From Bacteroidales bacterium (GTDB lineage Bacteria; Bacteroidota; Bacteroidia; Bacteroidales; Bacteroidaceae): 42,321 nucleotides of DNA. This document shows positions 11,507 through 42,321 of the stretch, one piece after another (positions within the stretch are counted from its first letter, which is position 1; each line of letters opens with the position of its first letter). A model generated the notes under the pieces. That model was given only the letters and a program-made list of their open reading frames with translations, did no database searches and had not been told where the DNA came from. Location of the stretch: NCBI GenBank assembly GCA_029218405.1, contig JAQXRG010000053.1:1-42321 (forward strand), read 5' to 3'. The position numbers were made by a program, and so were the translations under genes.

Positions 11507-11543
11507 CTCAGTATTCGAATCTATAATCAAATTAGTACGGCCG

Positions 11544-11551
11544 CAAAGTTA
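11544..11551 (-). promoter_or_regulatory. -7 element upstream of mtaB
   Basis: TAACTTTG on the minus strand matches the Bacteroidetes TAnnTTTG element and lies 37 bp before the ATG at 11506. I see no TTG at the expected -33 spacing. Confidence 0.55.
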
Positions 11552-11700
11552 CGCATTTTCTTCCAATGGCCGTGCTCCCCGTTCCGTTCCTTATTTATTT
11601 TTTGGATTTACCAGAAGACTTCCAACCGCTAAATATGTTTAATATCATATTTTTTAGAAAAAAAGTGGCCGATAGGAGAACAACGTATCAGAAAACTCCG

Positions 11701-11708
11701 TATCTTTG
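11701..11708 (+). promoter_or_regulatory. -7 element of the small lipoprotein gene
   Basis: TATCTTTG matches TAnnTTTG exactly and lies 50 bp before the ATG at 11759. No clear -33 TTG is present. Confidence 0.6.
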
Positions 11709-11758
11709 CAGCGTTTTAGAAAACAACATAAGTATTACAGATTTAAAAAGCAAAGAAA

Positions 11759-11968
11759 ATGAAAAAATTGGTATTTTTGTTCGTAGCATTCGCTGCTGTA
11801 TCTTTCGCATCTTGCGGTAACAAAGCAGCTAACACTGAAGCAACTGAAAACGCTGAAAGCGTAGAGGCAACTGTAGTTGAAGAAGCAGCTCCCGCCGCTG
11901 AAACTGATACTTGCTGCCAGGATTCTTGCAAGAAGGATTCTGCTGACTGCTGCAAGAGCGCTGAATAA
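11759..11968 (+). CDS. Small Ala/Glu-rich lipoprotein with a Cys-rich tail
   Basis: A 69-residue predicted lipoprotein. The signal peptide MKKLVFLFVAFAAVSFASC ends in a lipobox-like SFASC, so Cys19 would be lipidated. The middle is a low-complexity Ala/Glu/Thr linker. The end carries five cysteines in about 18 residues (DTCCQDSCKKDSADCCKSAE), a spacing that suggests metal binding or disulfides. Codons are unlike those of the GC-rich neighbours: mostly GCT, GAA, AAC, GTA, ACT, as in highly expressed genes. It has its own promoter and terminator, so it is monocistronic. I do not recognise a named family; surface or periplasmic location is inferred from the lipobox. Confidence 0.75.
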   Translation: MKKLVFLFVAFAAVSFASCGNKAANTEATENAESVEATVVEEAAPAAETDTCCQDSCKKDSADCCKSAE

Positions 11969-11993
11969 TCAACGCGAGTCAACGAGAGAATTG

Positions 11994-12026
11994 AAAGTCT
12001 GTAAGCTCAGCCTACAGACTTTTATT
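11994..12026 (+). terminator. Intrinsic terminator of the small lipoprotein gene
   Basis: AAAGTCTGTA (11994-12003) pairs with TACAGACTTT (12013-12022) around a 9-nt loop, followed by TTATT. It lies 26 bp after the lipoprotein stop codon. Confidence 0.8.
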
Positions 12027-12093
12027 ATGCCCGTACGCTTCCCGTCCGCAGGCCAGGAAATGCCGGCACACAAACCCGGAGGATGCCGACGCA

Positions 12094-12138
12094 TAAAAAA
12101 AACCCCAACCAGACGTACATCTGATTGGGGGATTTTTA
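12094..12138 (-). terminator. Terminator of the rpsF-rpsR-rplI operon
   Basis: On the minus strand CCCCAATCAGA pairs with TCTGGTTGGGG (one wobble pair) and is followed by a run of eight or more T. The plus strand also ends in GGGGGATTTTT, so it may work in both directions and separate the two convergent transcripts. Confidence 0.85.
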
Positions 12139-12160
12139 TCAAGTATTTACAGATAGCCTA

Positions 12161-12610
12161 TCAAGCTTCTTCCGCAACTACCTCGAAAGGAATTTCTACA
12201 GAAACCTCCTTGTGGAGTTTCACGATGGCCTTGTACTGACCCACTTCCTTCACCTGGTCTTTCACCACGATAATCTTGCGGTCGATGTTGTGACCCAACT
12301 TAGCCAGTTCCTCAGCAATCTGGATGTTGCCTACAGAACCATAGATAGAACCGGTAGCGCTGACCTTGGTAGCGATCTTCAGGGAAACGTCCTTCAGGGA
12401 TTCAGCCACTGCTTCAGCGTCCTTCTTGATCTTTTCCAACTTGTGCGCACGCTGCTTCAGCTCTTCTGCCAACATCTTCTTGGCAGCCGGAGATGCGATG
12501 ACAGCCTTGCCGGTAGGAATAAGATAGTTACGGCCATAGCCAGACTTCACGGTTACAATGTCGTTCTTGTAACCCAGGTTCATTACGTCTTCTTTCAAAA
12601 TCAGTTCCAT
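12161..12610 (-). CDS. rplI: 50S ribosomal protein L9
   Basis: bL9 binds 23S rRNA near the L1 stalk. The N-terminal domain begins MELILKEDVMNLGYKNDIV and has the conserved SGYGRNYLIPTGKAV. A long connecting helix (about 42-75) leads to the C-terminal domain with GSIYGSVGNIQIAEEL. Length 149 is typical. It is the last gene of the rpsF-rpsR-rplI operon. A strong Shine-Dalgarno sequence, AAAGGAGG, precedes it with a 9-nt spacer, which is unusual in this phylum. Confidence 0.97.
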   Translation of the reverse strand: MELILKEDVMNLGYKNDIVTVKSGYGRNYLIPTGKAVIASPAAKKMLAEELKQRAHKLEKIKKDAEAVAESLKDVSLKIATKVSATGSIYGSVGNIQIAEELAKLGHNIDRKIIVVKDQVKEVGQYKAIVKLHKEVSVEIPFEVVAEEA

Positions 12611-12617
12611 ACTCTTA

Positions 12618-12627
12618 CTCCTCCTTT
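12618..12627 (-). promoter_or_regulatory. Strong Shine-Dalgarno sequence before rplI
   Basis: AAAGGAGGAG on the minus strand ends 7 nt before the rplI ATG (9 nt for its AAAGGAGG core). It lies in the short gap between rpsR and rplI, so no protein sequence explains it. Confidence 0.75.
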
Positions 12628-12628
12628 A

Positions 12629-12898
12629 TTATTTCATCATATCAGTTACGAAAGGCAGCAAAGCCAAGTGACGTGCTCTCTTAACAGCCTGAGCGATACG
12701 ACGCTGGAACTTCAGTGAAGTACCGGTAATACGGCGCGGAAGGATCTTGCCCTGTTCGTTCAGGAACTTCTTCAGGAATTCGGGATCCTTATAGTCGATA
12801 TACTTGATACCGCTCTTTTTGAAACGGCAATACTTCTTCTTCTTGACATCTACTGAAGGCGGAGTCAAATATCTGATTTCTGATTGTTGCTGTGCCAT
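12629..12898 (-). CDS. rpsR: 30S ribosomal protein S18
   Basis: bS18 pairs with S6 on the platform of the 30S subunit. The core [19 protein letters not shown], the segment [18 protein letters not shown] and the ending [11 protein letters not shown] are diagnostic; length 89. In Bacteroidetes ribosomes S18, with S6 and S21, helps hide the 3' end of 16S rRNA. The ATG lies 2 bp after the rpsF stop codon. GAGGAG in the last rpsF codons (12907-12912) lies 8 nt upstream and could act as a Shine-Dalgarno site, although it also encodes Glu-Glu. Confidence 0.97.
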
Positions 12899-12900
12899 GA

Positions 12901-13248
12901 TTAGTTCTCCTCATTTTTAGTTGATTTCACATTTCTTCTCTTAGCAGCGTATTCTGCAGCGTATTTGTCCATCTTGAAAGTCAAGAAACGGATAACACGT
13001 TCGTCACGACGGAAGTTTACTTCCAATTTTGCGATTACCGAAGGTTCAGCCTTGAACTCGATGAGCTGGTAAAAACCGGTAGATTTCTTCTGAATGGGAT
13101 AAGCCAATTTCTTCAGACCCCAGTTCTCCTCATTGATGATCTCAGCCCCTTCCTGAGTCAGGACAGCCTTGAACTTCTCTACCGCTTCCTTCATCTGAGC
13201 ATCAGACAAAACGGGAGTTAAAATGAAAACGGTTTCGTATTGATTCAT
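12901..13248 (-). CDS. rpsF: 30S ribosomal protein S6
   Basis: bS6 is the S18 partner on the 30S platform. It begins [20 protein letters not shown], with [20 protein letters not shown] and a [16 protein letters not shown] strand; length 115. The C-terminal tail is basic and then acidic ([15 protein letters not shown]). It is first in the operon, under a well-formed promoter at 13295-13325. The 46-nt AT-rich leader contains no Shine-Dalgarno sequence, as is normal in this phylum. Confidence 0.97.
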
Positions 13249-13294
13249 ACTATTCGTTAATTAAGTGATTAATAAAAAATTTTCAATTGCGGCG

Positions 13295-13325
13295 CAAAGG
13301 TACGACTTTTTCTGGAACTGCCAAA
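13295..13325 (-). promoter_or_regulatory. Promoter of rpsF-rpsR-rplI
   Basis: On the minus strand TTTG (13322-13325), a 19-bp spacer and TACCTTTG (13295-13302) match the Bacteroidetes -33/-7 consensus. The -7 element ends 46 bp before the rpsF ATG. Confidence 0.85.
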
Positions 13326-13397
13326 TACCTTTCCGTATTTTCTATGAAAAATTATGTTATTTCTTCGCTTTTTGTAGGCATTCTCCCAAAAGAATAC

Positions 13398-13405
13398 TAC
13401 CTTTG
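13398..13405 (+). promoter_or_regulatory. -7 element of marR
   Basis: TACCTTTG matches TAnnTTTG and lies 27 bp before the marR ATG. TTTG at 13371-13374 is a possible -33 element with a long 23-bp spacer. Confidence 0.65.
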
Positions 13406-13413
13406 CAACAAAG

Positions 13414-13425
13414 TTGTTAGCACAA
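13414..13425. promoter_or_regulatory. Possible MarR operator at the marR start
   Basis: TTGTTAGCACAA has inverted arms TTGT and ACAA around four bases. It lies between the -7 element and the ATG, where an autoregulator would block transcription. It shares the TTG...CAA form with the clearer palindrome at 13959-13973. Confidence 0.35.
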
Positions 13426-13432
13426 TGATTCA

Positions 13433-13879
13433 ATGATAGAACAGTTCAATTTCGACATACAGATGATATTTGCCATCCTGAACGGCAAGGTATCGGCGGC
13501 CATCAACCGGAAACTCATCCGAAACTTCCGGAAGAACGGGTTGGAAATCACCCCGGAGCAATGGACCGTACTACTCTTCCTTTGGGAAAAGGACGGGGTC
13601 TCCCAACAGGAGCTCTGCAACGCCACGTTCAAGGACAAGCCCAGCATGACACGGCTCATCGACAACATGGAACGGCAGCACCTGGTGGTGCGCATCAACG
13701 ACAAGAAAGACCGCCGCACGAACAAGGTGCATCTCACCAAGACCGGGAAGGACCTGGAGGAGCGGGCTCGCTTCGTGGCCAACAAGACGTTGAAGGAGGC
13801 CCTGCACGGACTGACACTCGAAGAGCTGCGCGTCAGCCAGGAGGCCTTGCGCAAGGTTTTCAGCAACACGAAGGACTGA
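13433..13879 (+). CDS. MarR family transcriptional regulator
   Basis: A 148-residue winged-helix regulator of the MarR type. The DNA-binding core is visible as LEITPEQWTVLLFLWEKDGV, the recognition helix around KPSMTRLIDNMERQHLV, and the beta-wing INDKKDRRTNKVHLTKTGK. The N- and C-terminal helices form the dimer interface. There is one Cys (in QELCNAT), so a thiol switch is possible but unsupported. It is divergent from rpsF and upstream of a small membrane protein; two TTG...CAA palindromes flank the gene and are candidate operators. The ligand is unknown. Confidence 0.9.
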   Translation: MIEQFNFDIQMIFAILNGKVSAAINRKLIRNFRKNGLEITPEQWTVLLFLWEKDGVSQQELCNATFKDKPSMTRLIDNMERQHLVVRINDKKDRRTNKVHLTKTGKDLEERARFVANKTLKEALHGLTLEELRVSQEALRKVFSNTKD

Positions 13880-13958
13880 GAGCCCGGTCCGGAAAAGCCT
13901 TTTCGGGGAAGAAACGAAGATATTTGCTCCCAATTCCGAATTTTTTCCCGAAATAATT

Positions 13959-13973
13959 TTCTTGATACAAGAA
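13959..13973. promoter_or_regulatory. Perfect 15-bp palindrome, candidate MarR operator
   Basis: TTCTTGATACAAGAA is a perfect palindrome with 6-bp arms around ATA. It sits between marR and the 58-residue membrane protein gene, in an AT-rich promoter-like gap. Size and form fit sites bound by MarR dimers. Confidence 0.5.
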
Positions 13974-14027
13974 TTATGCTTTTCTTTGCAAGTAAGAATG
14001 ATATAACCATTAAAATAGAAGACACAC

Positions 14028-14204
14028 ATGAAAAGCTTATTAAAGTATTTAGGGGTGATATTGGTCATCATTGGCGCAGGCATCCTGATTGTATGTTCCG
14101 CCACCGGCAATGTCAACGACAATGGAGTATTGGGTTCCTCACTGGTATTGATCATCGTGGGAATGATCGCCTACATTGTCATCAATAAGCGCATTACCGA
14201 CTGA
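14028..14204 (+). CDS. Small membrane protein, 58 residues
   Basis: A short ORF starting MKSLLKYLGVILVIIGAGIL and ending VINKRITD. It has two hydrophobic segments, about residues 6-23 and 36-52, joined by a polar loop (ATGNVNDNGVLGSS), so a two-pass membrane hairpin is likely. The ATG follows an AT-rich leader and a strong terminator lies just downstream, which supports a real transcript. It lies 148 bp after marR with the palindrome between them, so it may be the regulator's target. I do not recognise a characterised family. Confidence 0.7.
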   Translation: MKSLLKYLGVILVIIGAGILIVCSATGNVNDNGVLGSSLVLIIVGMIAYIVINKRITD

Positions 14205-14232
14205 CCGTCACACACAGACCGCCTTCAGGCAA

Positions 14233-14271
14233 CAAAAAGCCCGGACACCTTCATCGGTTCCGGGCTTTTTG
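14233..14271. terminator. Bidirectional intrinsic terminator
   Basis: CAAAAAGCCCGGA (14233-14245) pairs with TCCGGGCTTTTTG (14259-14271): a 13-bp stem with A and T runs at the outer ends. It serves the small membrane protein on the plus strand and rprY on the minus strand. Confidence 0.9.
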
Positions 14272-14292
14272 TCGCTCGACATCCTTCCTGCC

Positions 14293-15000
14293 TTACTCGT
14301 TCTCCGGCGTAATCAGCTTATAGCCTTTTCCATGGATGTTGATGATTTCGATCGAGTCGTCGGCCTTCAGGTGCTTGCGCAGCTTCGTGATGTACACGTC
14401 CATGCTGCGGGCGTTGAAGTAATTGTCATCAATCCAGATGGTCTTCAGCGCGAAGTCACGCTGCAGGATTTCGTTGGCGTGCGCGCACAGCAAGCCGAGC
14501 AGCTCCGACTCCTTGGTCGTCAGTTTCGTCTGCTTGTCATCAATGGTCAGCAGCTGCTTCTGAGTGTCAAAGGTAAAGCGGCCAATCTTGTACATCGTAC
14601 TCTCCTTGGTCTTCTTGCCCCGCACGCGGCGCAGGATGGCCTCGATGCGCAAGGTCAGCTCTTCCATCGAGAAGGGCTTGGTGATATAGTCATCCGCACC
14701 AATCTTGAATCCTTCCAGGATATCCTCCTTCAGCGTCTTCGCGGTCAGGAAGATGACAGGAATCTCCGAGTTGGCCTGTCGGATTTCCTGTGCCAGCGTG
14801 AACCCGTCCTTCTTCGGCATCATCACATCAAGCACGCACAAATCGTATTTATTCTTCAGGAAGGCCTTGTAACCGGCTTCCCCGTCCGGGCAAAGGTCTG
14901 CAGAAAAGCCTTTCGCCTGCAGGTACTCTCTCAAAAGCATGCCAAGATTCTCATCATCCTCGCATAACAAGATACGCAATTTCTCATCCATATTATTCAT
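14293..15000 (-). CDS. rprY: Response regulator RprY (OmpR family)
   Basis: A 235-residue response regulator. The receiver domain has the acidic pair CEDDENLG, phosphoacceptor Asp58 in LCVLDVMMPKKDGF, the conserved Thr in FLTAKT and Lys in ITKPFS. The C-terminal winged helix contains TKESELLGLLCAHANEI and SMDVYITKLRKHLK. The whole sequence fits RprY of Bacteroides, named with RprX in B. fragilis. Its ATG at 15000 overlaps the rprX stop by 8 bp; the Met at 14991 is an alternative start. It is the regulator partner of RprX. Confidence 0.93.
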   Translation of the reverse strand: MNNMDEKLRILLCEDDENLGMLLREYLQAKGFSADLCPDGEAGYKAFLKNKYDLCVLDVMMPKKDGFTLAQEIRQANSEIPVIFLTAKTLKEDILEGFKIGADDYITKPFSMEELTLRIEAILRRVRGKKTKESTMYKIGRFTFDTQKQLLTIDDKQTKLTTKESELLGLLCAHANEILQRDFALKTIWIDDNYFNARSMDVYITKLRKHLKADDSIEIINIHGKGYKLITPENE

Positions 15001-32972: not shown

Positions 32973-34031
32973 TTACTGATTCGGCTCCAAAAGTAGGGAA
33001 AAAAAATGAGAAATCAAGCGAGGAACCGCAAAATTCTGCAGTTCGGACACCAAAACCCGCTGAAAACGGCTGTCGAAGGCCGACTCGTCCGCCAGTACCA
33101 CCTCGTGACAGTCGGCGATGAGGACGCGGTGCGACAGGACATGGCGCACGCCCTGAGCCACCAGGGTGACCTCTCGCGGAGGCGTGCCGCCGAAAAACTC
33201 CGCCCACTGGGGCGACTCCAGCAGCTCCTTCCCGGCAAGGGGCACGTCGGTCTCTAACAGGGGCAGTTCGTAGAGATGCTGCCAAATGTCTCCCTTTCCC
33301 CTCTTATTAATAAAGGTATAGGCGCCCGCACGTACAAAAAAATAATGGAAATACCGTTCCTTCACCTGGGTCTTTTTCGATTTCCTGGGCAGGTCCCCCA
33401 CCCTGCCCAGCCGGAGCGCGGCGCACCCGTCGTTCAAGGGACACATCAGGCAGGCGGGCGAGGCGGGCGTGCACTGCACGGCGCCGAAGTCCATGATGGC
33501 CTGGTTGTAGAGCGCAGGGTCCGATGTCCCCATCAGCTCTCGCGCCAGGGCCGCGAAGAGCTTCTTGCCCGCCGTGGTGTCAATGGGTTCGTCAATCCCT
33601 AACCAGCGGGCGATGACCCGATAGACATTGCCATCGACCACCGCGCAAGGCAGGCCGTAGGCGAAGGCGCAGACGGCCGAGGCCGTATAGTCGCCCACTC
33701 CTTTGAGGCGGCGCACCCCCTCGTACGTGTCGGGAAACCGGCCCAGGGCCGCCACCTCCTTGGCCGCCGCGTGCAGGTTGCGGGCACGGGAGTAGTAGCC
33801 CAGCCCCTGCCACAGCTTCATCACCTCGTCCTCGGGTGCGTCGGCCAGTGCCTGCACGTCGGGAAAACGTTCGATGAAGCGCAGGTAGTAGTCATATCCC
33901 TGCGCCACCCGCGTCTGCTGCAGGATAATCTCTGAAATCCATATCCTGTACGGATCTTTCGTGCCTCGCCAAGGCAGGCTGCGACCGTTCTCACGGTACC
34001 AGTCCATCAGTTTTCGAGCGAAAAATTGCAT
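32973..34031 (-). CDS. mutY: A/G-specific adenine glycosylase
   Basis: MutY removes adenine mispaired with 8-oxoguanine. The helix-hairpin-helix glycosylase domain shows WRGTKDPYRIWISEIILQQT, the catalytic region LKGVGDYTASAVCAFAYG followed by VDGNVYRVIARWLGID, and the [4Fe-4S] loop CTPASPACLMCPLNDGC. The C-terminal NUDIX-like domain (from about 230) recognises 8-oxoG. Length 352 is normal. It opens the mutY-ssb-gldE-transferase operon and has a perfect Shine-Dalgarno sequence, rare in this phylum. Confidence 0.95.
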   Translation of the reverse strand: MQFFARKLMDWYRENGRSLPWRGTKDPYRIWISEIILQQTRVAQGYDYYLRFIERFPDVQALADAPEDEVMKLWQGLGYYSRARNLHAAAKEVAALGRFPDTYEGVRRLKGVGDYTASAVCAFAYGLPCAVVDGNVYRVIARWLGIDEPIDTTAGKKLFAALARELMGTSDPALYNQAIMDFGAVQCTPASPACLMCPLNDGCAALRLGRVGDLPRKSKKTQVKERYFHYFFVRAGAYTFINKRGKGDIWQHLYELPLLETDVPLAGKELLESPQWAEFFGGTPPREVTLVAQGVRHVLSHRVLIADCHEVVLADESAFDSRFQRVLVSELQNFAVPRLISHFFSLLLEPNQ

Positions 34032-34036
34032 GTCAT

Positions 34037-34046
34037 ACCTCCTTTT
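34037..34046 (-). promoter_or_regulatory. Perfect Shine-Dalgarno sequence before mutY
   Basis: AAAAGGAGGT on the minus strand, 5 nt before the mutY ATG, is complementary to the canonical anti-Shine-Dalgarno end of 16S rRNA. Confidence 0.8.
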
Positions 34047-34061
34047 TTATGGTTTCGGCGG

Positions 34062-34069
34062 CAAAAATA
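34062..34069 (-). promoter_or_regulatory. -7 element of the mutY operon
   Basis: TATTTTTG on the minus strand matches TAnnTTTG and lies 30 bp before the mutY ATG; no -33 TTG was found. Confidence 0.6.
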
Positions 34070-34145
34070 GGCATTAAAAGGGTACTATCCACACTTTTTT
34101 TAGAAAATTATCGGCTAATTATTTCTCAGAGAGCAGGAAAAGCTA

Positions 34146-34153
34146 TATATTTG
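34146..34153 (+). promoter_or_regulatory. -7 element of the HU gene
   Basis: TATATTTG matches TAnnTTTG and lies 45 bp before the ATG at 34199. No -33 TTG at proper spacing. Confidence 0.6.
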
Positions 34154-34198
34154 CAGTCCAAAAAATTAAGAGAACGTATAACAATAATTATTAGTGAA

Positions 34199-34474
34199 AT
34201 GACTAAAGCAGACATTGTAAATGAAATCGCCAAAAACACTGGCATTGACAGAGCCACAGTGTTAACGACACTGGAAGCTTTCATGGAGACCGTGAAGGGT
34301 TCCTTGTCGAACGATGAGAACGTGTATCTCCGTGGTTTCGGCAGCTTCATTGTAAAGAAGAGAGCCCAGAAGACCGCCCGGAACATTTCGAAGAACACCA
34401 CCATCATCATTCCGGAGCACAACATCCCGGCATTCAAACCGGCTAAGACATTTACTATCTCAGTAAAAAAATAA
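34199..34474 (+). CDS. HU family DNA-binding protein
   Basis: A 91-residue nucleoid protein of the HU/IHF family. It begins MTKADIVNEIAKNTGIDRAT and has the dimer core LEAFMETVKGSLSNDENVYLRGFGSF and the DNA-embracing arm region RAQKTARNISKNTTIIIPEH, ending FKPAKTFTISVKK. The start at 34199 matches the family exactly; upstream in-frame codons read through the -7 element. It is followed after 39 bp by the 29-residue ribosomal-type protein and then RNase G. Confidence 0.95.
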   Translation: MTKADIVNEIAKNTGIDRATVLTTLEAFMETVKGSLSNDENVYLRGFGSFIVKKRAQKTARNISKNTTIIIPEHNIPAFKPAKTFTISVKK

Positions 34475-34513
34475 CATCAACATTAGTATTAACCCTTATA
34501 AATTAATTAAGCT

Positions 34514-34603
34514 ATGCCAAGCGGAAAGAAAAGAAAAAGACATAAAATGTCTACTCACAAGCGTAAAAAAAGACTGAGAAAGAACAGACATAAGAGCAAA
34601 TAA
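34514..34603 (+). CDS. bS22/mS38-like (AURKAIP1/COX24 domain) small basic protein
   Basis: A 29-residue, extremely basic protein starting MPSGKKRKRHKM and ending LRKNRHKSK. The pattern KRKRHKM-xx-HKRKKRLRKNR fits the AURKAIP1/COX24 domain shared by mitochondrial mS38 and mycobacterial bS22, proteins on the small ribosomal subunit near the decoding region. About 60% of residues are Lys, Arg or His, so rRNA binding is very likely. It lies between HU and RNase G, an arrangement I recall from other Bacteroidales. Function in Bacteroidetes ribosomes is inferred, not shown by the sequence. Confidence 0.8.
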   Translation: MPSGKKRKRHKMSTHKRKKRLRKNRHKSK

Positions 34604-34631
34604 ATCCGATTCCGGTTACCCGGAATCGGAT
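34604..34631 (+). terminator. Perfect hairpin after the bS22-like gene
   Basis: ATCCGATTCCGG (34604-34615) and CCGGAATCGGAT (34620-34631) form a 12-bp stem with a TTAC loop directly after the stop codon. There is no T run, so it may be an RNA-stabilising or processing hairpin between HU-bS22 and rng rather than a full terminator. Confidence 0.65.
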
Positions 34632-34649
34632 GCGGTCTGTCCGACTTCA

Positions 34650-34706
34650 ATAAAGAACAAGCCCGAAGCCGACTTCCAGTAAGCCTCATTCAGGTTTGTT
34701 CTTTAT
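34650..34706 (+). promoter_or_regulatory. Inverted repeat in the rng leader
   Basis: ATAAAGAACAA (34650-34660) and TTGTTCTTTAT (34696-34706) are perfect inverted arms of 11 bp around 35 nt, about 70 nt before the rng start. It could fold in the rng mRNA and be a site for self-cleavage or control. Confidence 0.5.
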
Positions 34707-34773
34707 GCATTCTGCCGTTTCCCACACCCCGGGAGCGGCAATTGTTGAACCAAATTTAAAGAGCAAGAACCAA

Positions 34774-36348
34774 GTGACAAGCGAATTAGTAGTTGACGTA
34801 CAGCCCAAGGAGATCGCCATCGCCCTGTTGGAAGACAAGAGCCTGGTCGAATTCCAGCGCGAGCAGCGGAGCCTTTCGTTCTCCGTGGGCAACATGTACC
34901 TGGGCAAGGTGCGCAAGCTCATGCCCGGCCTGAACGCCTGCTTCGTGGATGTAGGCTTCGGCAAAGACGCTTTCCTTCATTACTTGGACCTCGGACCTCA
35001 ATTCCACTCTTATCAGAAGTATCTGAAGCAAGTACTGAGCGACCGGAAACGCCTGTACCCCATCTCGAAGGCCACCATGCTGCCCGACATCGAAAAGGGA
35101 GGTACCCTCTCGACCATCCTGCAGCAAGGACAAGAAGTCATCGTGCAAATCGTGAAGGAACCCATTTCCACCAAAGGACCCCGCCTGACCTGCGAGCTTT
35201 CCTTCGCCGGGCGTTACCTCGTCCTTATCCCCTTCAACGACAAGGTGTCCGTGTCGCAGAAAATCAAATCGAGCGAAGAGCGCGCCCGCCTCAAGCAGCT
35301 CCTCCAGAGCATCAAGCCAAAGAACTTCGGTGTCATCGTACGCACGGTGGCCGAAGGAAAACGGGTGGCGGAACTCGACGCCGAACTGAAAGTCCTGCTG
35401 AAGCATTGGGAAGAGACCATCACTAAAGTACAAAAGGCCACCAAACTGCCGGCCTTGGTGTACGAGGAGACCAGCCGCACCGTCGCCATGCTGCGCGACC
35501 TGTTCAACCCCTCGTACGAGAACATTTACGTGAACGACGAAGCCGTCTTCAACGAAGTAAAAGATTACGTAGCGCTCATCGCCCCCGAACGGGCCGGCAT
35601 CGTGAAGCTCTACAAAGGACAGCTTCCCATCTTCGACAATTTTGCCATCACCAAACAGATGAAGTCATCGTTTGGCAAGACCATCTCCTACAAGGGAGGA
35701 GCGTACCTCATCATCGAGCACACCGAAGCCCTGCACGTCGTGGACGTGAACAGCGGCAACCGCTCCCGCTCCACCAACGGACAGGAGGCCAACGCCCTCG
35801 ACGTGAACCTTGGCGCCGCCGACGAACTGGCCCGCCAGCTGCGGTTGCGCGACATGGGTGGCATCATTGTTGTGGACTTTATCGACATGAACCTGGCGGA
35901 AAGCCGCCAGAAACTGTACGAGCGGATGTGTCAGAACATGCAGAAAGACAGGGCCAAGCACAACATACTACCCCTGAGCAAATTCGGACTGATGCAAATC
36001 ACCCGGCAGCGCGTGCGCCCAGCCATGGAGGTGAACATCGACGAAGACTGTCCCGTCTGCTTCGGCAAGGGCAAGATCAAGCCCTCCATCCTCTTCACAG
36101 ATACACTGGAAAGCAAGATTGACTACCTGGTCAGCAAACTGAAGGTGAAGCGGTTCACCCTTCACATCCATCCCTACGTGGCCGCCTACGTCAACCAGGG
36201 CCTGATGTCCCTGAAACGGAAGTGGCAGATGAAGTACGGGTTCGGCATCAAGATCATCCCCAACCAGAGCCTGGCCCTCCTGCAGTACAAGTTCTACGAC
36301 GTGCAGGGAGAGGAGCTGGACATGAAGGAAGAAATCGAAATCAAGTGA
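34774..36348 (+). CDS. rng: Ribonuclease E/G family endoribonuclease
   Basis: A 524-residue RNase G-type enzyme for rRNA maturation and mRNA decay. The S1 domain occupies about residues 35-120 (FSVGNMYLGKVRKLMPGLNACFVDVG). The catalytic Asp residues lie in VVDVNSGNRSRS and IVVDFIDMNLAES, and the Zn-link is CPVCFGKGK. It lacks the long C-terminal degradosome scaffold of RNase E. The start is the GTG at 34774 (read as M-TSELVVDVQPKEIAIAL), which matches the family N-terminus; an earlier TTG frame start would pass through the leader hairpin. Confidence 0.93.
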   Translation: MTSELVVDVQPKEIAIALLEDKSLVEFQREQRSLSFSVGNMYLGKVRKLMPGLNACFVDVGFGKDAFLHYLDLGPQFHSYQKYLKQVLSDRKRLYPISKATMLPDIEKGGTLSTILQQGQEVIVQIVKEPISTKGPRLTCELSFAGRYLVLIPFNDKVSVSQKIKSSEERARLKQLLQSIKPKNFGVIVRTVAEGKRVAELDAELKVLLKHWEETITKVQKATKLPALVYEETSRTVAMLRDLFNPSYENIYVNDEAVFNEVKDYVALIAPERAGIVKLYKGQLPIFDNFAITKQMKSSFGKTISYKGGAYLIIEHTEALHVVDVNSGNRSRSTNGQEANALDVNLGAADELARQLRLRDMGGIIVVDFIDMNLAESRQKLYERMCQNMQKDRAKHNILPLSKFGLMQITRQRVRPAMEVNIDEDCPVCFGKGKIKPSILFTDTLESKIDYLVSKLKVKRFTLHIHPYVAAYVNQGLMSLKRKWQMKYGFGIKIIPNQSLALLQYKFYDVQGEELDMKEEIEIK

Positions 36349-36397
36349 CCCCAGCGGCGGCTCCGGAAGCGAAGCGACCGGCCTGCCGACAGCCATC

Positions 36398-36465
36398 GGA
36401 GAAGCGTACCGTCCCCCCTGCCCCATCCGGGCAAACGCCGTGGACGGTACGCTTCTCCTTTTTTT
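36398..36465 (+). terminator. Intrinsic terminator of rng
   Basis: GGAGAAGCGTACCGTCC (36398-36414) pairs perfectly over 17 bp with GGACGGTACGCTTCTCC (36442-36458), followed by seven T (36459-36465). The strongest terminator in the window. Confidence 0.95.
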
Positions 36466-36499
36466 GTCCCGAATTGTTTCGTGCATAACATTTATTGTG

Positions 36500-36507
36500 T
36501 ATTTTTG
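36500..36507 (+). promoter_or_regulatory. -7 element of the C69-C1 peptidase operon
   Basis: TATTTTTG matches TAnnTTTG, 28 bp before the ATG at 36536. TTG at 36474-36476 is a possible -33 with a long 23-bp spacer. Confidence 0.65.
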
Positions 36508-36535
36508 CACATCCAATAACCAAAAGCATACAAGA

Positions 36536-38128
36536 ATGATACGAACAGCATTACTTCTGACAGGACTGGCCCTCTGCCAGCTCCTCTCCGCACAGAACCC
36601 CGTACACTACGACCCCGACTGCTGCACCAGCATCATGGTGGGCCGGCTGGCCAGCACCGACGGCTCTGTCATGACCAGCCACACCTGCGACAGCTGGTAC
36701 CGCACCTGGGTGAACGTGCAGCCTGCCGCCGACTACCCCAACGACACGGTGATGAGCATCTACAAGGGACGCATGCACACCGAGACCTGGACCGACCAGA
36801 CCAACTCAGTGGAAAGCGGCAAGATACCGCAGGCACGCCACACCTACTCCTTCCTCGACACCGCCTATCCCTGCCTGAACGAGAAACAGCTGGCCATGGG
36901 CGAGACCACCATCAGCGGCCGCCGCGAGCTGCAGAACAAGAACGGCATGTTCCTCATCGAGGAGCTGCAGCGCGTGGCCCTGCAGCGCTGCACCACCGCC
37001 CGTGAGGCCATCCGGCTGATGGGCGACCTCATCCAGCGCTACGGCTACGGCGACTCGGGCGAGTGCCTCACCATCGCCGACCCGAAAGAAGTGTGGCACT
37101 TCGAGGTCTTTGGCGAAGGCCCCGACAAGCTGGGAGGCGTATGGGCGGCCGTCCGCATCCCCGACGACGAGGTGGGCGTGTCGGCCAACATCTCCCGCAT
37201 CAGCACCCTCGACCTCAAGGACACCGACCGCTACATGGCCTCTGACAATGTGTTCGAAGTGGCCCGCCGCCTCAAGCTGTGGGACGGCAAGGAGCCGTTC
37301 AAGTTCTGGAAAGCCTACGGCGGCCCCAACTACTCCGGCAAGTACCAGGCCTACAGCATCCGCGACTACTTCATCCTGAGCACCCTGGCCCCCTCGCTGA
37401 AACTGACGATGGACGGCGAGGAGCTGCCCTTCAGCGTCAAGCCCGAGAAGAAGCTGAGCGTGGAGGACGTGCTGGCCTACTTCCGCCAGTACTATGAGGG
37501 CACCGAGCACGACATCACCCGCCACCTGAAAGTGGAGGTGAAGGACAAGGACGGCAAGACGGACAGCATCATCAGCCCTGTGGCCAACCCGTGGATGCGC
37601 CCGGACGAGATCAAAATGCTGAACGCCATCAAGCCTGGCGCCGCTCCGCAGGTGCGCAACATCGCCGTGCCCCAGTGCGCCTACGCCACCGTCATCCAGT
37701 TGCGCAGCTGGCTGCCCGACGCCGTGGGCGGCGTGTGCTGGTTCTCGATGGACAACCCTGCGCAGAGTCCCCGTGTGCCCATCTTCTGCGGCACCACCGA
37801 CCTGCCCGACATGTACAAGATCTGCGGCAACCACCGCTACCGCCAGGATGCCGCCCTGTGGCACTACCGCACCGCCAACAAGCTGGCCACCGTGCGCTGG
37901 GGCACCGCCCGCAAGGAGCTGGAGCAGCACCTGCAGCACTTCATCCGCAAGGGCGTGACCGAACTGCCCATGGTGGAAGCCCGCTACCAGGAACTGGCCC
38001 GCACCGAAGGCGAAGCCGCCGCAAAGGCCTACCTGACCGACTACACCGCCGACTTCATCGGCGCCACCGTCCTGCGCTGGGACCAGATGGCCGCCCGCCT
38101 CTGGAACACCTACCGTTTCGGACTCTGA
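36536..38128 (+). CDS. Exported C69 family dipeptidase
   Basis: A 530-residue N-terminal-nucleophile peptidase of family C69 (formerly U34). A signal peptide (MIRTALLLTGLALCQLLSAQ) is followed by a short propeptide and DCCTSIMVGRLASTDGSVM, where a Cys (about residue 29 or 30) becomes the nucleophile after processing. Further family segments are TYSFLDTAYPCLNEKQLAMGE and the central YGDSGECLTIADPKEVWHFEVFG. It should cleave dipeptides or short peptides in the periplasm. The ATG at 36536 gives the signal peptide. It lies 43 bp before the C1 peptidase, so the pair may work in sequence on dietary or envelope peptides. Confidence 0.9.
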   Translation: MIRTALLLTGLALCQLLSAQNPVHYDPDCCTSIMVGRLASTDGSVMTSHTCDSWYRTWVNVQPAADYPNDTVMSIYKGRMHTETWTDQTNSVESGKIPQARHTYSFLDTAYPCLNEKQLAMGETTISGRRELQNKNGMFLIEELQRVALQRCTTAREAIRLMGDLIQRYGYGDSGECLTIADPKEVWHFEVFGEGPDKLGGVWAAVRIPDDEVGVSANISRISTLDLKDTDRYMASDNVFEVARRLKLWDGKEPFKFWKAYGGPNYSGKYQAYSIRDYFILSTLAPSLKLTMDGEELPFSVKPEKKLSVEDVLAYFRQYYEGTEHDITRHLKVEVKDKDGKTDSIISPVANPWMRPDEIKMLNAIKPGAAPQVRNIAVPQCAYATVIQLRSWLPDAVGGVCWFSMDNPAQSPRVPIFCGTTDLPDMYKICGNHRYRQDAALWHYRTANKLATVRWGTARKELEQHLQHFIRKGVTELPMVEARYQELARTEGEAAAKAYLTDYTADFIGATVLRWDQMAARLWNTYRFGL

Positions 38129-38171
38129 CCCTACTGTTACATCCTATCATCTTTTAATCCATCATGACCCG

Positions 38172-39350
38172 ATGAAAGCAATGACACTCGCCGCCCTGCT
38201 GACGGCCACCGCCGCAGCAACGGCACAATCCACCGACGGATACCAGTTCACCACCGTCGTCAACCAAAAGGTGACCCCCGTAAAGAACCAGGCCGCCACC
38301 GGCACCTGCTGGTGCTTCGCCACCACCTCCTTCTTCGAGGCCGAACTGCTCCGCATGGGCAAGGGCGAATACGACCTCTCCGAGATGTTCATCGTGCGCC
38401 AGAAGTACATGAACCAGCTCGATGACAACTACCTGCGCCGAGGCAAAGGCAACCTGGGACCGGGCAGCATCTCCCCCACCTGGGTCACCGCCTTCCGCCA
38501 AGTGGGCATCGTGCCCGAAGAGGTGTACAGCGGCATCAACTACGACTCGCCCACCCACAACCACAAGGAACTGGGCAGCTACGTGGGCGCCATCGCCGAG
38601 ACAGCCGTCCAGCTGCGCCAGCGCAGTCCGGAGTACTACGAGCTGGTGAACAGCCTGTTCGACATCTACCTCGGCAAGGTGCCCGAGAAGTTCACCTACC
38701 GAGGCAAGGAATACACCCCGAAGACCTTTGCCGTCAGCCTGGGCCTGAACATGGACGACTACGTGATGCTGACCAGCTTCACCCACAAGCCCTACTACGC
38801 GCCCATGGAGGTCGAGGTGCCCGACAACTGGGAGCACGCCGAGATGTACAACCTCCCCCTCGACGAGCTGATGCAGGAGACCGACAACGCCCTGCAGACC
38901 GGCTACACCGTGTGCTGGGACGGCGACGTGAGCGAGAAAGGCTTCTCCTTCAAGAACGGCGTGGCCATCAACCCCGAAGTGGAGAAGACCGAAGACCTGA
39001 AGGACACCGACTTCGCCCGCTGGAACCAGATGGACGCACAGGCCCGTCTGGCCGAGGCCTACCGCTTCGAGGGTCCCTGCCCGGAAGTGAAGGTGACCCC
39101 CGAAATCCGCCAGCAGGGCTATGAGGCCTTCGTCACCACCGACGACCACCTGATGCACCTCACCGGCATCGCCAAGGACCAGAACGGCACGAAGTACTAC
39201 ATCACGAAGAACTCGTGGGGCACGGCCCGCAACGACTTCGGCGGCTACCTGAACATGTCCGAAAGCTATGTGCGCGCCAAGACCATCTTTGTGATGATGC
39301 ACAAGGACGCGCTGACCAAGGGCATGCGCCAGCGGCTGGGCCTCCGGTAG
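38172..39350 (+). CDS. Exported C1 family peptidase (bleomycin hydrolase/PepC-like)
   Basis: A papain-like cysteine peptidase of 392 residues with a signal peptide (MKAMTLAALLTATAAATAQ). The active site is complete: the Gln/Cys segment TPVKNQAATGTCWCFATTSF near residue 45, the His in TTDDHLMHLTGIAKD and the Asn in YYITKNSWGTARNDFGGYL. The arrangement resembles aminopeptidase C/BlmA rather than classical papain, with a long insertion between Cys and His. It follows the C69 dipeptidase on one transcript and is closed by a long hairpin terminator. Confidence 0.9.
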   Translation: MKAMTLAALLTATAAATAQSTDGYQFTTVVNQKVTPVKNQAATGTCWCFATTSFFEAELLRMGKGEYDLSEMFIVRQKYMNQLDDNYLRRGKGNLGPGSISPTWVTAFRQVGIVPEEVYSGINYDSPTHNHKELGSYVGAIAETAVQLRQRSPEYYELVNSLFDIYLGKVPEKFTYRGKEYTPKTFAVSLGLNMDDYVMLTSFTHKPYYAPMEVEVPDNWEHAEMYNLPLDELMQETDNALQTGYTVCWDGDVSEKGFSFKNGVAINPEVEKTEDLKDTDFARWNQMDAQARLAEAYRFEGPCPEVKVTPEIRQQGYEAFVTTDDHLMHLTGIAKDQNGTKYYITKNSWGTARNDFGGYLNMSESYVRAKTIFVMMHKDALTKGMRQRLGLR

Positions 39351-39380
39351 GAACGCTGCCGCACGGCACAACTCCCACGC

Positions 39381-39440
39381 AAGAGACGGGGTGGACGGCC
39401 AAGGGAACCAGTATCCCCTTCGGCCTCCGCCCCGTCTCTT
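39381..39440. terminator. Long hairpin after the C1 peptidase gene
   Basis: AAGAGACGGGG (39381-39391) pairs with CCCCGTCTCTT (39430-39440). Inner complementary blocks (GGA/TCC, GGCC/GGCC, AAGGG/CCCTT) extend it into a nearly continuous stem. A few T follow. It separates the peptidase operon from the convergent small exported protein gene. Confidence 0.75.
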
Positions 39441-39530
39441 CCTGTGCAGCCTCCGACATGCGCCGCTTCCCTGGTCAGGAGTGCGCCGCTTTTCCGGTTG
39501 AAGTACGTCACCGCCCCCGTTAGAGGCGCG

Positions 39531-39893
39531 TCACTGCCGTCTTCCTCCCTGCGGGCGCTGGTTCATCTCCTGGTACTTCTTATACTGCTCCTCTGTCAGG
39601 ATAGCCTTCACCTTCTGGTCCACCGCCTCACGCTTCTGCTTCATCTCCTCGCGCATCTTCTCCATCTCCTCCTTCGACGGACGCTGTCCGTCAGCGGGAC
39701 GGGCGGCCGGACGCATCTCAGCCATCGCCTCCCGGAACTGCTTGGCCTGTGCCTCGTCCAGTCCCAGCTTCTTCACCATCTGTTCGATACGCTTCGCAGG
39801 GTCCATCTGTCCGTTGCCCCGTTGTGCCATTCCCGTTGCGGCTCCCATCAGGCAGAGAGCCATTGCCAGTACTACTGTCTTCATTCTCATCAT
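39531..39893 (-). CDS. Small exported Glu/Lys/Met-rich protein (DUF4890-like)
   Basis: A 120-residue protein with signal peptide MMRMKTVVLAMALCLMGAATGMAQ. The mature part is helical and charged: MDPAKRIEQMVKKLGLDEAQAKQF, a Pro/Ala linker (RPAARPADGQRPSKEE), a long charged helix (EEMEKMREEMKQKREAVDQK) and VKAILTEEQYKKYQEM. The LT-EEQ-YKKY pattern recalls CpxP/Spy-type periplasmic chaperones and the DUF4890 family of Bacteroidales; the assignment is tentative. I use the ATG at 39893; the upstream sequence is close to the 51-bp repeat and has no good promoter. Confidence 0.72.
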   Translation of the reverse strand: MMRMKTVVLAMALCLMGAATGMAQRGNGQMDPAKRIEQMVKKLGLDEAQAKQFREAMAEMRPAARPADGQRPSKEEMEKMREEMKQKREAVDQKVKAILTEEQYKKYQEMNQRPQGGRRQ

Positions 39894-40013
39894 TGTCAAA
39901 AATTAAAAGGTTCGTAATCATGTTGTTTTGTCGTTTTGACGGTTTTCCATCCCCAAAGTTTAATTCGTCTTCCGTTAAAATATCCTGCATCAGGCTTCCC
40001 CCGTTTTTCAAAA

Positions 40014-40064
40014 AAGGGGTTCTACCGTAATTAGTGTGAGTTAACAATCTCGAATAGTTAAACC
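40014..40064 (+). repeat. 51-bp perfect direct repeat, copy 1
   Basis: Begins AAGGGGTTCTACCGTAATTA and ends CGAATAGTTAAACC. It is identical over 51 bp to 42080-42130, in the same orientation and 2066 bp apart. The flanking bases differ on both sides, so these are the exact limits. A hairpin-like CCCC...TTTTT/AAAAA...GGGG (39999-40019) overlaps its left end. Nothing else recognisable lies in 39900-40013. Confidence 0.95.
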
Positions 40065-40105
40065 GTTTCTCAACTCCAAAAGAGTGCTTCTACGAAAAGA
40101 TTTCG

Positions 40106-40113
40106 TAAATTTG
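40106..40113 (+). promoter_or_regulatory. -7 element of the 490-residue orphan gene
   Basis: TAAATTTG matches TAnnTTTG and lies 30 bp before the ATG at 40144, just inside the left repeat. No -33 TTG. Confidence 0.55.
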
Positions 40114-40143
40114 CACTTGCTAGTTGAATCCGCGAGTTGGTGA

Positions 40144-41616
40144 ATGCAGAATAATCAGTTAAAAAAAATACAAATGAACAAAGAAAAGAAAGAAGAATTG
40201 AAGAAGCTGTTCTCAATCATCGATGAGAAGAAGTTTCTGAGGTTTACCAAGTCGTATGCGATGAAGGATGAGTCATTTGCGGATGCCATCTTTGAATATT
40301 TCATGCCGGAGGACAAACCTATTGACTATAAGAAAAACATTGCAGAATGCTTTGCCCACAAGAAGAAGGGCAGGGTGGCGTCGTGGAAACTCAAATATGA
40401 CTGGGAGGTGATTCGCAAGGAGTCGAAGCGTGTGATGAAACAGCTGCAGATGATGGTTGATGGCAGCGATTACATTTCAGCCATCGATGGCGCCTTGCTT
40501 TTCCTTGAAACACTGTGCAAGCACTTCAACGAAGACAATTTTGAGTACGACTACAACACCTACGAGGGCAAGGATTTCAGCACTCGTACGGCATTGTCCA
40601 TCGTGCGCAAACTGCTGCTCTCTGAACATGGGGAATTCACCAAACCAGAAAAACTCCAAATAGTTGAGCGCCTGAAGAGAATTGACAAGAAAGGCGTGAT
40701 AGACGAATATCTCGACGGCAACATGGGTGACCTGATTGACGATGCCCAGAAGATGCTTCTGGATGACGGGCAGATGCTTCTGGTATTGGACGAAAAGATT
40801 GCCGCAGAGGAGTATGACCACAAGAAAGCACTGCTAATTATCCAGAAGGCCGAGCTCCTCAATGGCATGAACAGGCAGAATGAATCGGACAAACTGATCG
40901 AGCAGAATATGCACATTGAGGAGATCAGGAAGTATGATCTCGACAAGTTGATGGCAGGGCATAAATATGAGGAGGCGGAAAGAAAATGCACTGCTTATCT
41001 GAAAGAGAAAGGTTATCGCACCCAGATGTGGATGGAATACAAACTTGCCATCGGTGAGAAAACAGACAACAAGGAACTGATGTGTCCTGCCCTGCAATGG
41101 CTCTGCGTATATGCCAATACGTACAGAGAGGCCCGGATGGAGTATTGCACCAGGCTAAAGTCGCTATGCGAAAAGGAGCAATGGCTAAAGGTTCGTGAGG
41201 AGCTGATAAAGGAAATGGTGGAGGAGTCCGGCGGTAAAGAACTCGGTTTCTGGCTGTTGAGGCAGGAGGGTTTGAATGAGCGCCTCTATGGTTACATCGC
41301 TGGCCTTCCACTCTTTTCAAACTATTGGAACAGAACATCCGGTGGAGAAATGTTGAAATACTATGCCCTCTTTTCAGATGCCTTTACTGAGGAGCAGCAG
41401 GAAGCGCTGGAGAACCGCATCTGCGATGCTGTCATGAACGATGCGACACGTTCCAACAAGGAGAAGGATTATTACGGCATAAAATATGGAATAGAGGAGT
41501 TGGCGAAAGTGCGGCCTGAAAGTCATGACAAGGCAGTCACCCTGCGCGACAACCTTATCCGTCTATACCCGAGGAAACCATTATTCCTTTCCATTTTGAA
41601 AAAATTGGATTTGTAG
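40144..41616 (+). CDS. Orphan helical-repeat protein, 490 residues
   Basis: I do not recognise a named family with confidence. The protein is almost wholly helical and charged, with no signal peptide or membrane segment. TPR-like pairs are suggested by DKLMAGHKYEEAERKCTAYLKEK and nearby helices. The C-terminal end (VTLRDNLIRLYPRKPLFLSIL) recalls the ending of the long helical region found behind SWIM zinc-finger domains, yet no CxC...CxH motif is present, so it could be a SWIM protein that lost its N-terminus. The Met at 40174 (MNKEKKEELKKL) is an alternative start. Codons and GC content differ from the rest of the window, suggesting transfer. It is enclosed by the 51-bp repeats. Confidence 0.8.
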   Translation: MQNNQLKKIQMNKEKKEELKKLFSIIDEKKFLRFTKSYAMKDESFADAIFEYFMPEDKPIDYKKNIAECFAHKKKGRVASWKLKYDWEVIRKESKRVMKQLQMMVDGSDYISAIDGALLFLETLCKHFNEDNFEYDYNTYEGKDFSTRTALSIVRKLLLSEHGEFTKPEKLQIVERLKRIDKKGVIDEYLDGNMGDLIDDAQKMLLDDGQMLLVLDEKIAAEEYDHKKALLIIQKAELLNGMNRQNESDKLIEQNMHIEEIRKYDLDKLMAGHKYEEAERKCTAYLKEKGYRTQMWMEYKLAIGEKTDNKELMCPALQWLCVYANTYREARMEYCTRLKSLCEKEQWLKVREELIKEMVEESGGKELGFWLLRQEGLNERLYGYIAGLPLFSNYWNRTSGGEMLKYYALFSDAFTEEQQEALENRICDAVMNDATRSNKEKDYYGIKYGIEELAKVRPESHDKAVTLRDNLIRLYPRKPLFLSILKKLDL

Positions 41617-41838
41617 CGACATACTCGACTGCGATCCCTGCGGAGAGAAGCGCTGCTCACCGCCATCTACAACGAACGGCGTACGGAGTTTCTCGACGAA
41701 GGGATGCGCGGATTGGATAAGCGGGCCTACAAAGAGAAAGGCCAAAGAGAAGCTCGACAAGATGGTTTTCAACATCGGCTGTCCCGACAGATGGGTCGAG
41801 GAGGCGTTGCCACAGCTCACAGGACCGGCGTTGGTTAG
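41617..41838 (+). pseudogene. Gene remnant resembling a SusD/RagB C-terminus
   Basis: Directly after the orphan gene's TAG and in the same frame, the sequence is open to a TAG at 41836. It contains REALLTAIYNERRTEFLDEG (from about 41644), which fits the conserved C-terminal stretch of SusD-family glycan-binding lipoproteins (xxIxxERRxEFxxEGxRxxD). It has no start codon, signal peptide or SusD N-terminus. After about 41720 the match stops. I read it as a short broken fragment; the family call rests on one motif. Confidence 0.5.
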
Positions 41839-41869
41839 ATGTCCGCCCAAGCAGCCATCAAGCAGATAG
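41723..41869 (+). pseudogene. Gene remnant resembling an M13 metallopeptidase
   Basis: In the +1 frame relative to the SusD-like fragment, AKEKLDKMVFNIGCPDRW (41741-41794) fits the M13 (neprilysin-like) segment where ...KxxEKLxKMxxxIGYPDKW precedes the zinc site. The zinc motif HExxH is absent, and the frame ends at a TAG at 41867-41869. A short decayed piece. Confidence 0.5.
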
Positions 41870-41982
41870 ACCTCAAAGACTATGCCTCGAAGGTTGCACT
41901 CTCAGGTCTGCCCATCGTGAAGGTTGGCGTCAACTTCGACACCAGTCGCCGGACTATAGGCGACTGGAAAGTGGAGCCGTAA
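41839..41982 (+). pseudogene. Remnant: C-terminus of a PD-(D/E)XK nuclease-domain protein
   Basis: An ATG at 41839 opens 47 codons ending in TAA at 41980. Residues AIKQIDLKDYASKVA, then IVKVGVNFDTSRRTIGDWKV, match the conserved end of the AAA-like ATPase/PD-(D/E)XK nuclease proteins (DUF1703 type) common in Bacteroidales. The AAA part and nuclease core are missing. The intervening 41983-42079 has no clear gene; one frame ends in ARYVMETYA and may be a further fragment. Confidence 0.65.
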
Positions 41983-42079
41983 TGGAGTATTTCTCCTGTT
42001 CCGAATCTGTTGATTCATCAGTCACGATACGGAAGAAAGACTGCACGGTACGTCATGGAAACCTACGCTTAGCATTCAG

Positions 42080-42130
42080 AAGGGGTTCTACCGTAATTAG
42101 TGTGAGTTAACAATCTCGAATAGTTAAACC
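42080..42130 (+). repeat. 51-bp perfect direct repeat, copy 2
   Basis: Identical to 40014-40064 over all 51 bases and in the same orientation. It closes the segment that holds the orphan gene and the fragment mosaic. Confidence 0.95.
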
Positions 42131-42321
42131 ATTAACATTTGCAAGCTTCCCTAAAAGAGAAACACCTCAAAAAGCCGTACACGGCTCTTGTCAGAGAGCG
42201 AAAAAAGTTGAAAGTCGTAGGTTGAAAAAGTGAAATATTGTTTAATAATCGAGTAGGAGATCAGCCGGTCAGCCAAAGATGTACGTGACTTCATGAACAG
42301 GCAAGAGGATGCCCAGCATAA
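42131..42321. other. AT-rich flank beyond the second repeat
   Basis: No gene can be supported. A small hairpin AGCCG-TACA-CGGCT (42173-42186) is present. A frame open to the window edge reads ISRSAKDVRDFMNRQEDAQH, preceded by a stop, and could be the start or a fragment of a gene that continues outside. Confidence 0.4.

Follow-up and report, generated by a model that had tools for sequence, protein, structure and literature searches.

An 8-bp target duplication is usual for insertion sequences (ISs) of the ISL3 family. Among the non-autonomous elements known from the Bacteroidales, the MITEs of Porphyromonas gingivalis (MITE239, MITE464/PgRS, MITE700 and BrickBuilt) resemble the element described here in carrying no means of moving themselves, but the report on them gives terminal repeats of the GAGACC... 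and ACGT... types, located beside IS5-family elements, and these differ from the termini of our element (PMC4596501). Among the matches listed for literature on MITEs or ISL3 elements in Prevotella, Bacteroides and Bacteroidetes, none concerned an ISL3-derived miniature element of Bacteroidales, and the element may be undescribed. It is represented by two same-facing copies in the window, the whole 42,321-nucleotide stretch of DNA analyzed here (contig C53 of a Bacteroidales bacterium draft genome). We consider it very likely that these copies are truncated ISL3-type miniature-element ends, both without the other end, and that the segment between them is leftover accessory DNA rather than cargo. 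What had looked like a possible cassette system is thereby replaced by a known kind of mobile debris, and ISL3-derived miniature elements are documented in the Bacteroidales.

The initial annotation of this DNA had drawn attention to a perfect 51-bp direct repeat, and direct comparison bears this out: positions 40014-40064 and 42080-42130 are identical at 51/51 bp, lie in the same orientation and start 2066 bp apart. A 32-base core had two matches in the window, whereas 100 dinucleotide shuffles yielded 0.00 on average (up to three mismatches allowed). When the comparison is extended to 40014-40067 and 42080-42133, 53 of the 54 bp match. The first four bases of the 51-mer (AAGG) fall outside the element; the copies on two other contigs, C75 and C90, are common from GGTTCT or just before. 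The segment between the repeats had also been described as AT-richer than a GC-rich block of 40 kb preceding it. The segment (44% GC at 40001-41000 and 51% at 41001-42000) is indeed AT-richer than its immediate surroundings, but equally low GC occurs within those 40 kb, with 44% at 34001-35000 and 46-50% at 11001-15000. An exact 34-mer had no match in viral contigs, and a 121-bp query from the element had none among plasmids or phages.

Table 1. Features around the two copies of the miniature element. Positions are those of the window (C53).
Feature	Position	Strand	Evidence
Copy 1: terminal 50 bp (bases 1-50) of ISL3-type miniature element, outer edge leftward	40018..40067	+	Identical to C75 and C90 copies to 40067; aligns with full-length ISL3 termini
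Last 70 bp of IS30-family element: final transposase codons (by eye) and right terminus	40066..40135	+	100% identity to C36:5709-5778
490-aa ORF without family assignment	40144..41616	+	Two SWIM zinc-finger proteins of the genus match at 25-26% identity
Scrap of PD-(D/E)XK nuclease (PDDEXK_9) gene C-terminus	41839..41982	+	Pfam PF08011 on translated piece, E 7.7e-6
Copy 2: terminal 105 bp (bases 1-105) of miniature element, oriented as copy 1	42084..42188	+	99% over 42082-42188 to C75-type query, then divergence
Stretch from the copy 2 break to the contig end	42189..42321	.	No match elsewhere in own genome

The draft genome to which the window belongs comprises 2.71 Mb in 188 contigs and is 83% complete. 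The terminus of the repeat is found there at five places, namely twice on C53 and also on C75 (C75:21528), C90 (C90:4122) and C106, where the copy is cut by the contig end. Sequence common to the copies runs well past the 51-mer and reaches a hairpin with a T-run that was recognized by eye (AGCCGTGTACGGCTTTTT on one strand). On C106 the element is preserved for 147 bp, a stretch that takes in its opposite, inverted terminus (GGTTCTCAGGGTTTAGTGTGAATTAACA); adding the 27 bp known from other copies gives an inferred length of about 174 bp. The element thus combines the features expected of a MITE: several dispersed copies, a short sequence without a transposase gene, and terminal inverted repeats related to those of autonomous ISs, with both ends aligning to ISL3 ends. 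No contig of this genome holds a complete copy, and with all copies incomplete, no 8-bp duplication is demonstrable for any of them. A further scrap of 32 bp (L022, C148:16938-16969) is joined to an apparent DUF1016 gene fragment (by eye).

Copy 2 and the copies on C75, C90 and C106 lie no more than about 240 bp from contig ends, and copy 1 does not. Such a placement is expected when an assembler stops in a repeat, and the element is the likely reason for where several of the draft contigs end. In searches of the same genome, a 23-base pattern with three mismatches gave four matches and its reversed control none; a 16-base core with two mismatches allowed gave five, all exact, but because its reversed control gave three, the core alone is no proof. 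Across the genus, the 121-bp query matched in 2 of 61 genomes, the window's own included. An autonomous partner is not assembled in this genome, where the sole ISL3 transposase match is a C-terminal fragment (L017, C138:45097-45312) near a contig end, beside a tRNA-like sequence (by eye). It was considered as the partner and dropped; the end-like sequence adjacent to it differs, as judged by eye. In a Phocaeicola plebeius MAG (G025), the opposite end of the window's element occurs and stops after the GTGTACGGCTTT hairpin (L018 / L028); this is another truncated copy, in a relative.

The closest counterparts of the element came from searches with its end. Of 22 loci that a degenerate end pattern found in a genome collection, 18 bear the title Prevotella or Prevotellaceae and the remaining four Phocaeicola plebeius (one), Bacteroidales bacterium (one) and uncultured bacterium (two). 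Within the family the end is rare, with matches in 9 of 399 genomes, own included, and none for the reversed control pattern. The 39 loci examined (22 from the collection pattern and 17 from the family sample, partly overlapping and with the window included) contained nine distinct inverted pairs: three of 1307-1359 bp, five of 196 bp and one of 593 bp. The three long elements (L043, L023 and L032), which are Prevotellaceae ISs, encode an ISL3 transposase (Pfam PF01610 DDE_Tnp_ISL3, E 2e-54 to 3e-58), and the NCBIfam ISL3 model scored above its cut-off for L043 and L023, the two tested. Like the window's element, these ISs have GGTTCT...TTAGTGTGA.TTAAC ends, and in the full-length elements L043 and L023 GTTAA-type motifs reappear behind the termini, which fits the earlier suggestion that such motifs in the repeat might suit a putative protein-binding site. 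They differ in being 1.31-1.36 kb long with a transposase, whereas the window's element is about 174 bp without a gene and its copies in the window are truncated. In L043 (3323-4681) and L023 (109-1461), the N-terminal and DDE parts of the transposase are in two frames that meet at an eight-A run (GAAAAAAAACGATAG), an arrangement that suggests a -1 frameshift.

The 196-bp elements (L025, L033, L034, L035 and L037, from Prevotella jejuni, P. veroralis and Bacteroidales bacterium KA00344) are, like the window's, small, geneless and bounded by two inverted ISL3-type ends. They derive from the 1307-bp type, of which they are the joined ends (bases 1-115 at 100% and 112-196 at 98%), and no similarity to the window's element was reported past about 30 bp of each end. 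Unlike the window's copies, theirs are intact and flanked by 8-bp target duplications, perfect (8/8) in four cases and 7/8 in the fifth. One long element (L023) also has a perfect 8/8 duplication and the other two do not (4/8 and 3/8); the 593-bp pair has no clear one. Duplications of at least 7/8 therefore accompany six of the nine related pairs.

Judged by alignment, the 51-mer forms one end of a miniature element of ISL3 type. Its repeat end aligned best with the transposase-start ends of L023 (75% over the first 78 bases, E 6e-11) and L043 (84% over 54 bp, E 4e-10), and the other end of the element aligned best with the opposite ends of L023 and L043 (82% over 43 bp, E 4e-6 each). Weaker cross-matches exist because the ends of the element are inverted repeats of each other: the repeat end gave E 8e-6 and 2e-5, and the other end 3e-5 and 2e-4. 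We therefore regard the repeat end as clearly assigned and the other end as only weakly so. An alignment of the repeat end with the 1307-bp type covered 29 bp (E 2e-7), and all lesser alignments of the window's ends with other ends had E values from 2e-7 to 4e-3. These resemblances favor one of the options offered in the initial annotation, that of two ends left by related insertion elements. A match of the 51-mer to the terminal repeat of a known IS had also been named there as grounds for abandoning a cassette. The resemblance to an ISL3-family terminal region comes close to that, although it stems from comparisons outside ISfinder and these did not yield the true parent: alignments to full-length elements reach at best 75-84% over 43-78 bases.

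Copy 1 runs directly into IS30-family sequence, the two overlapping by TT at the join. The match to this 70-bp tail on C36 is near the end of that contig, and 8 of 61 genus genomes, counting the window's own, carry homologues of the tail. A frame with RPREKL was found upstream of the tail in four of the six loci sought (L069, L061, L066 and L059), and under that filter there was none in L071 or L068. Because the two longest frames, those of L069 and L059, are IS30-family transposases by NCBIfam (E 1e-69 and 3e-66), we take 40066-40135 to be the tail of an IS30-family element. The claim that no transposase or integrase lies between the repeats consequently needs amending: no intact transposase is present there, but the 3' end of an IS30-family element is. 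Reading the ORFs of 36000-42321 by eye revealed no integrase; four of these ORFs were also scanned with Pfam. In another relative (G047; L058, L065, L070 and L074), eleven IS30-type tail matches were noted, several within 25 bp of contig ends, which probably reflects an IS30 expansion in that relative.

Little else in the segment can be assigned to a family. Protein matches to its 490-aa ORF were obtained in 2 of 59 other genus genomes (E 1e-15 and 2e-14), and both matching proteins carry an N-terminal SWIM zinc finger, which no Pfam hit shows in the ORF itself; on these alignments, the ORF is a distant relative of SWIM zinc-finger proteins. It had two Pfam hits, both below cut-off, no NCBIfam hit, and no match among plasmids. 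The nuclease scrap scored 26.3 bits with PF08011 against a cut-off of 25.5 and has DNA matches of 78-80% at four other places in the genome. A reading of the 41620-41830 scrap as SusD-like failed (E 0.18), and a by-eye reading as peptidase M13 returned no hit. Beyond copy 2, the sequence to the contig end gave a single 26-bp match of 92%, in 1 of 250 other family genomes, among the matches listed (up to three candidates per genome).

The locus was also compared with that of relatives, one of the checks originally proposed. A relative of the C1 peptidase gene is present in 59 of 61 genus genomes (paralogues counted, own included), and in nine relatives the DNA 3' of this gene holds various other genes, with the segment in none of them. 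By blastn, none of the nine matches the window past the DUF4890 gene, and eight do not match even at that gene. The closest relative (G025) has the order peptidase, DUF4890-like gene, metallo-hydrolase gene (named by eye), and in the window's genome the metallo-hydrolase gene is on C168, adjoining an mltG-like gene (by eye). Gene order beside the C1 peptidase varies, which prevented us from demonstrating a clean empty site; the nine relatives yielded neither an empty site nor a single-copy version of the segment.

The different genes that these relatives carry at this position are also what might be seen if an assembly misjoin at the multi-copy repeat had placed the segment beside the 40-kb block. 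The fragmentation of the draft and the location of the C75, C90 and C106 copies at contig ends point the same way. Nevertheless, the truncated copies in the window measure 50 and 105 bp, less than the full repeat, and would not necessarily break an assembly, and copy 1 joins IS30 sequence rather than another copy of the MITE. We regard a misjoin as unlikely.

A local duplication that made one repeat from the other is very improbable. Such a scar would accommodate the identity of the two copies for 4 bp (AAGG) beyond the end of the element, but the flanks before AAGG differ, as does one base in the common part, and copy 2, unlike copy 1, goes on to match those on C75, C90 and C106 for another 55 bp. 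It is also very improbable that the two copies form a composite transposon that jointly carries the intervening DNA. Two mobile-element copies 2 kb apart do flank non-core genes, but a composite would present outward ends on both sides of the segment, and here there is one only on the left because copy 2 has lost its far end, diverging at 42189; pattern scans found no further ISL3-type end in C53, which stops at 42321. With a single end retained by each copy and the two in the same orientation, the pair lacks the right-hand counterpart that it would need to mobilize the segment. Most improbable of all is a site-specific cassette in which the 51-mer is a recombination site and an enzyme excises or acquires the segment: a perfect direct repeat does flank a distinct segment, but that repeat continues inward as a larger multi-copy element with inverted ends resembling ISL3, its copies are truncated and those on C90 and C106 adjoin unrelated genes (among the ORFs listed for these two contigs), and no integrase was seen among the ORFs listed.

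The best reading of the arrangement is an intergenic region that holds truncated mobile elements, one of which is fused to an IS30 tail, and our verdict is that the region is ordinary mobile-element debris. The identity with the other copies, the opposite end on C106, the resemblance of both ends to full-length ISL3 elements and the IS30 remnant are observed directly; from these we infer mobilization in trans and an order of events. An ISL3 transposase would move the miniature element in trans, recognizing the GGTTCT...TTAGTGTGA.TTAAC end together with the GTTAA motifs that follow it. Two insertions in the same orientation would have landed close together past the DUF4890 gene, and both would later have lost their other end. 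At copy 1, a deletion would have joined base 50 of the MITE to the IS30-family tail through the 2-bp overlap, and copy 2 would have been cut after base 105. A crossover between the 51-bp copies could in principle delete the segment. More tentatively, and with odds that we place somewhat against it, the element may belong to an undescribed group of ISL3-derived miniature elements spread across the Bacteroidaceae and Prevotellaceae, whose truncated ends would shape accessory regions such as the present one by serving as sites of deletion and fusion. In another locus (L027, 1-110), a tandem of two ISL3-type ends was noted, 49 bp apart and in the same orientation, a truncated end with another directly after it in an arrangement resembling copy 1 of the window.
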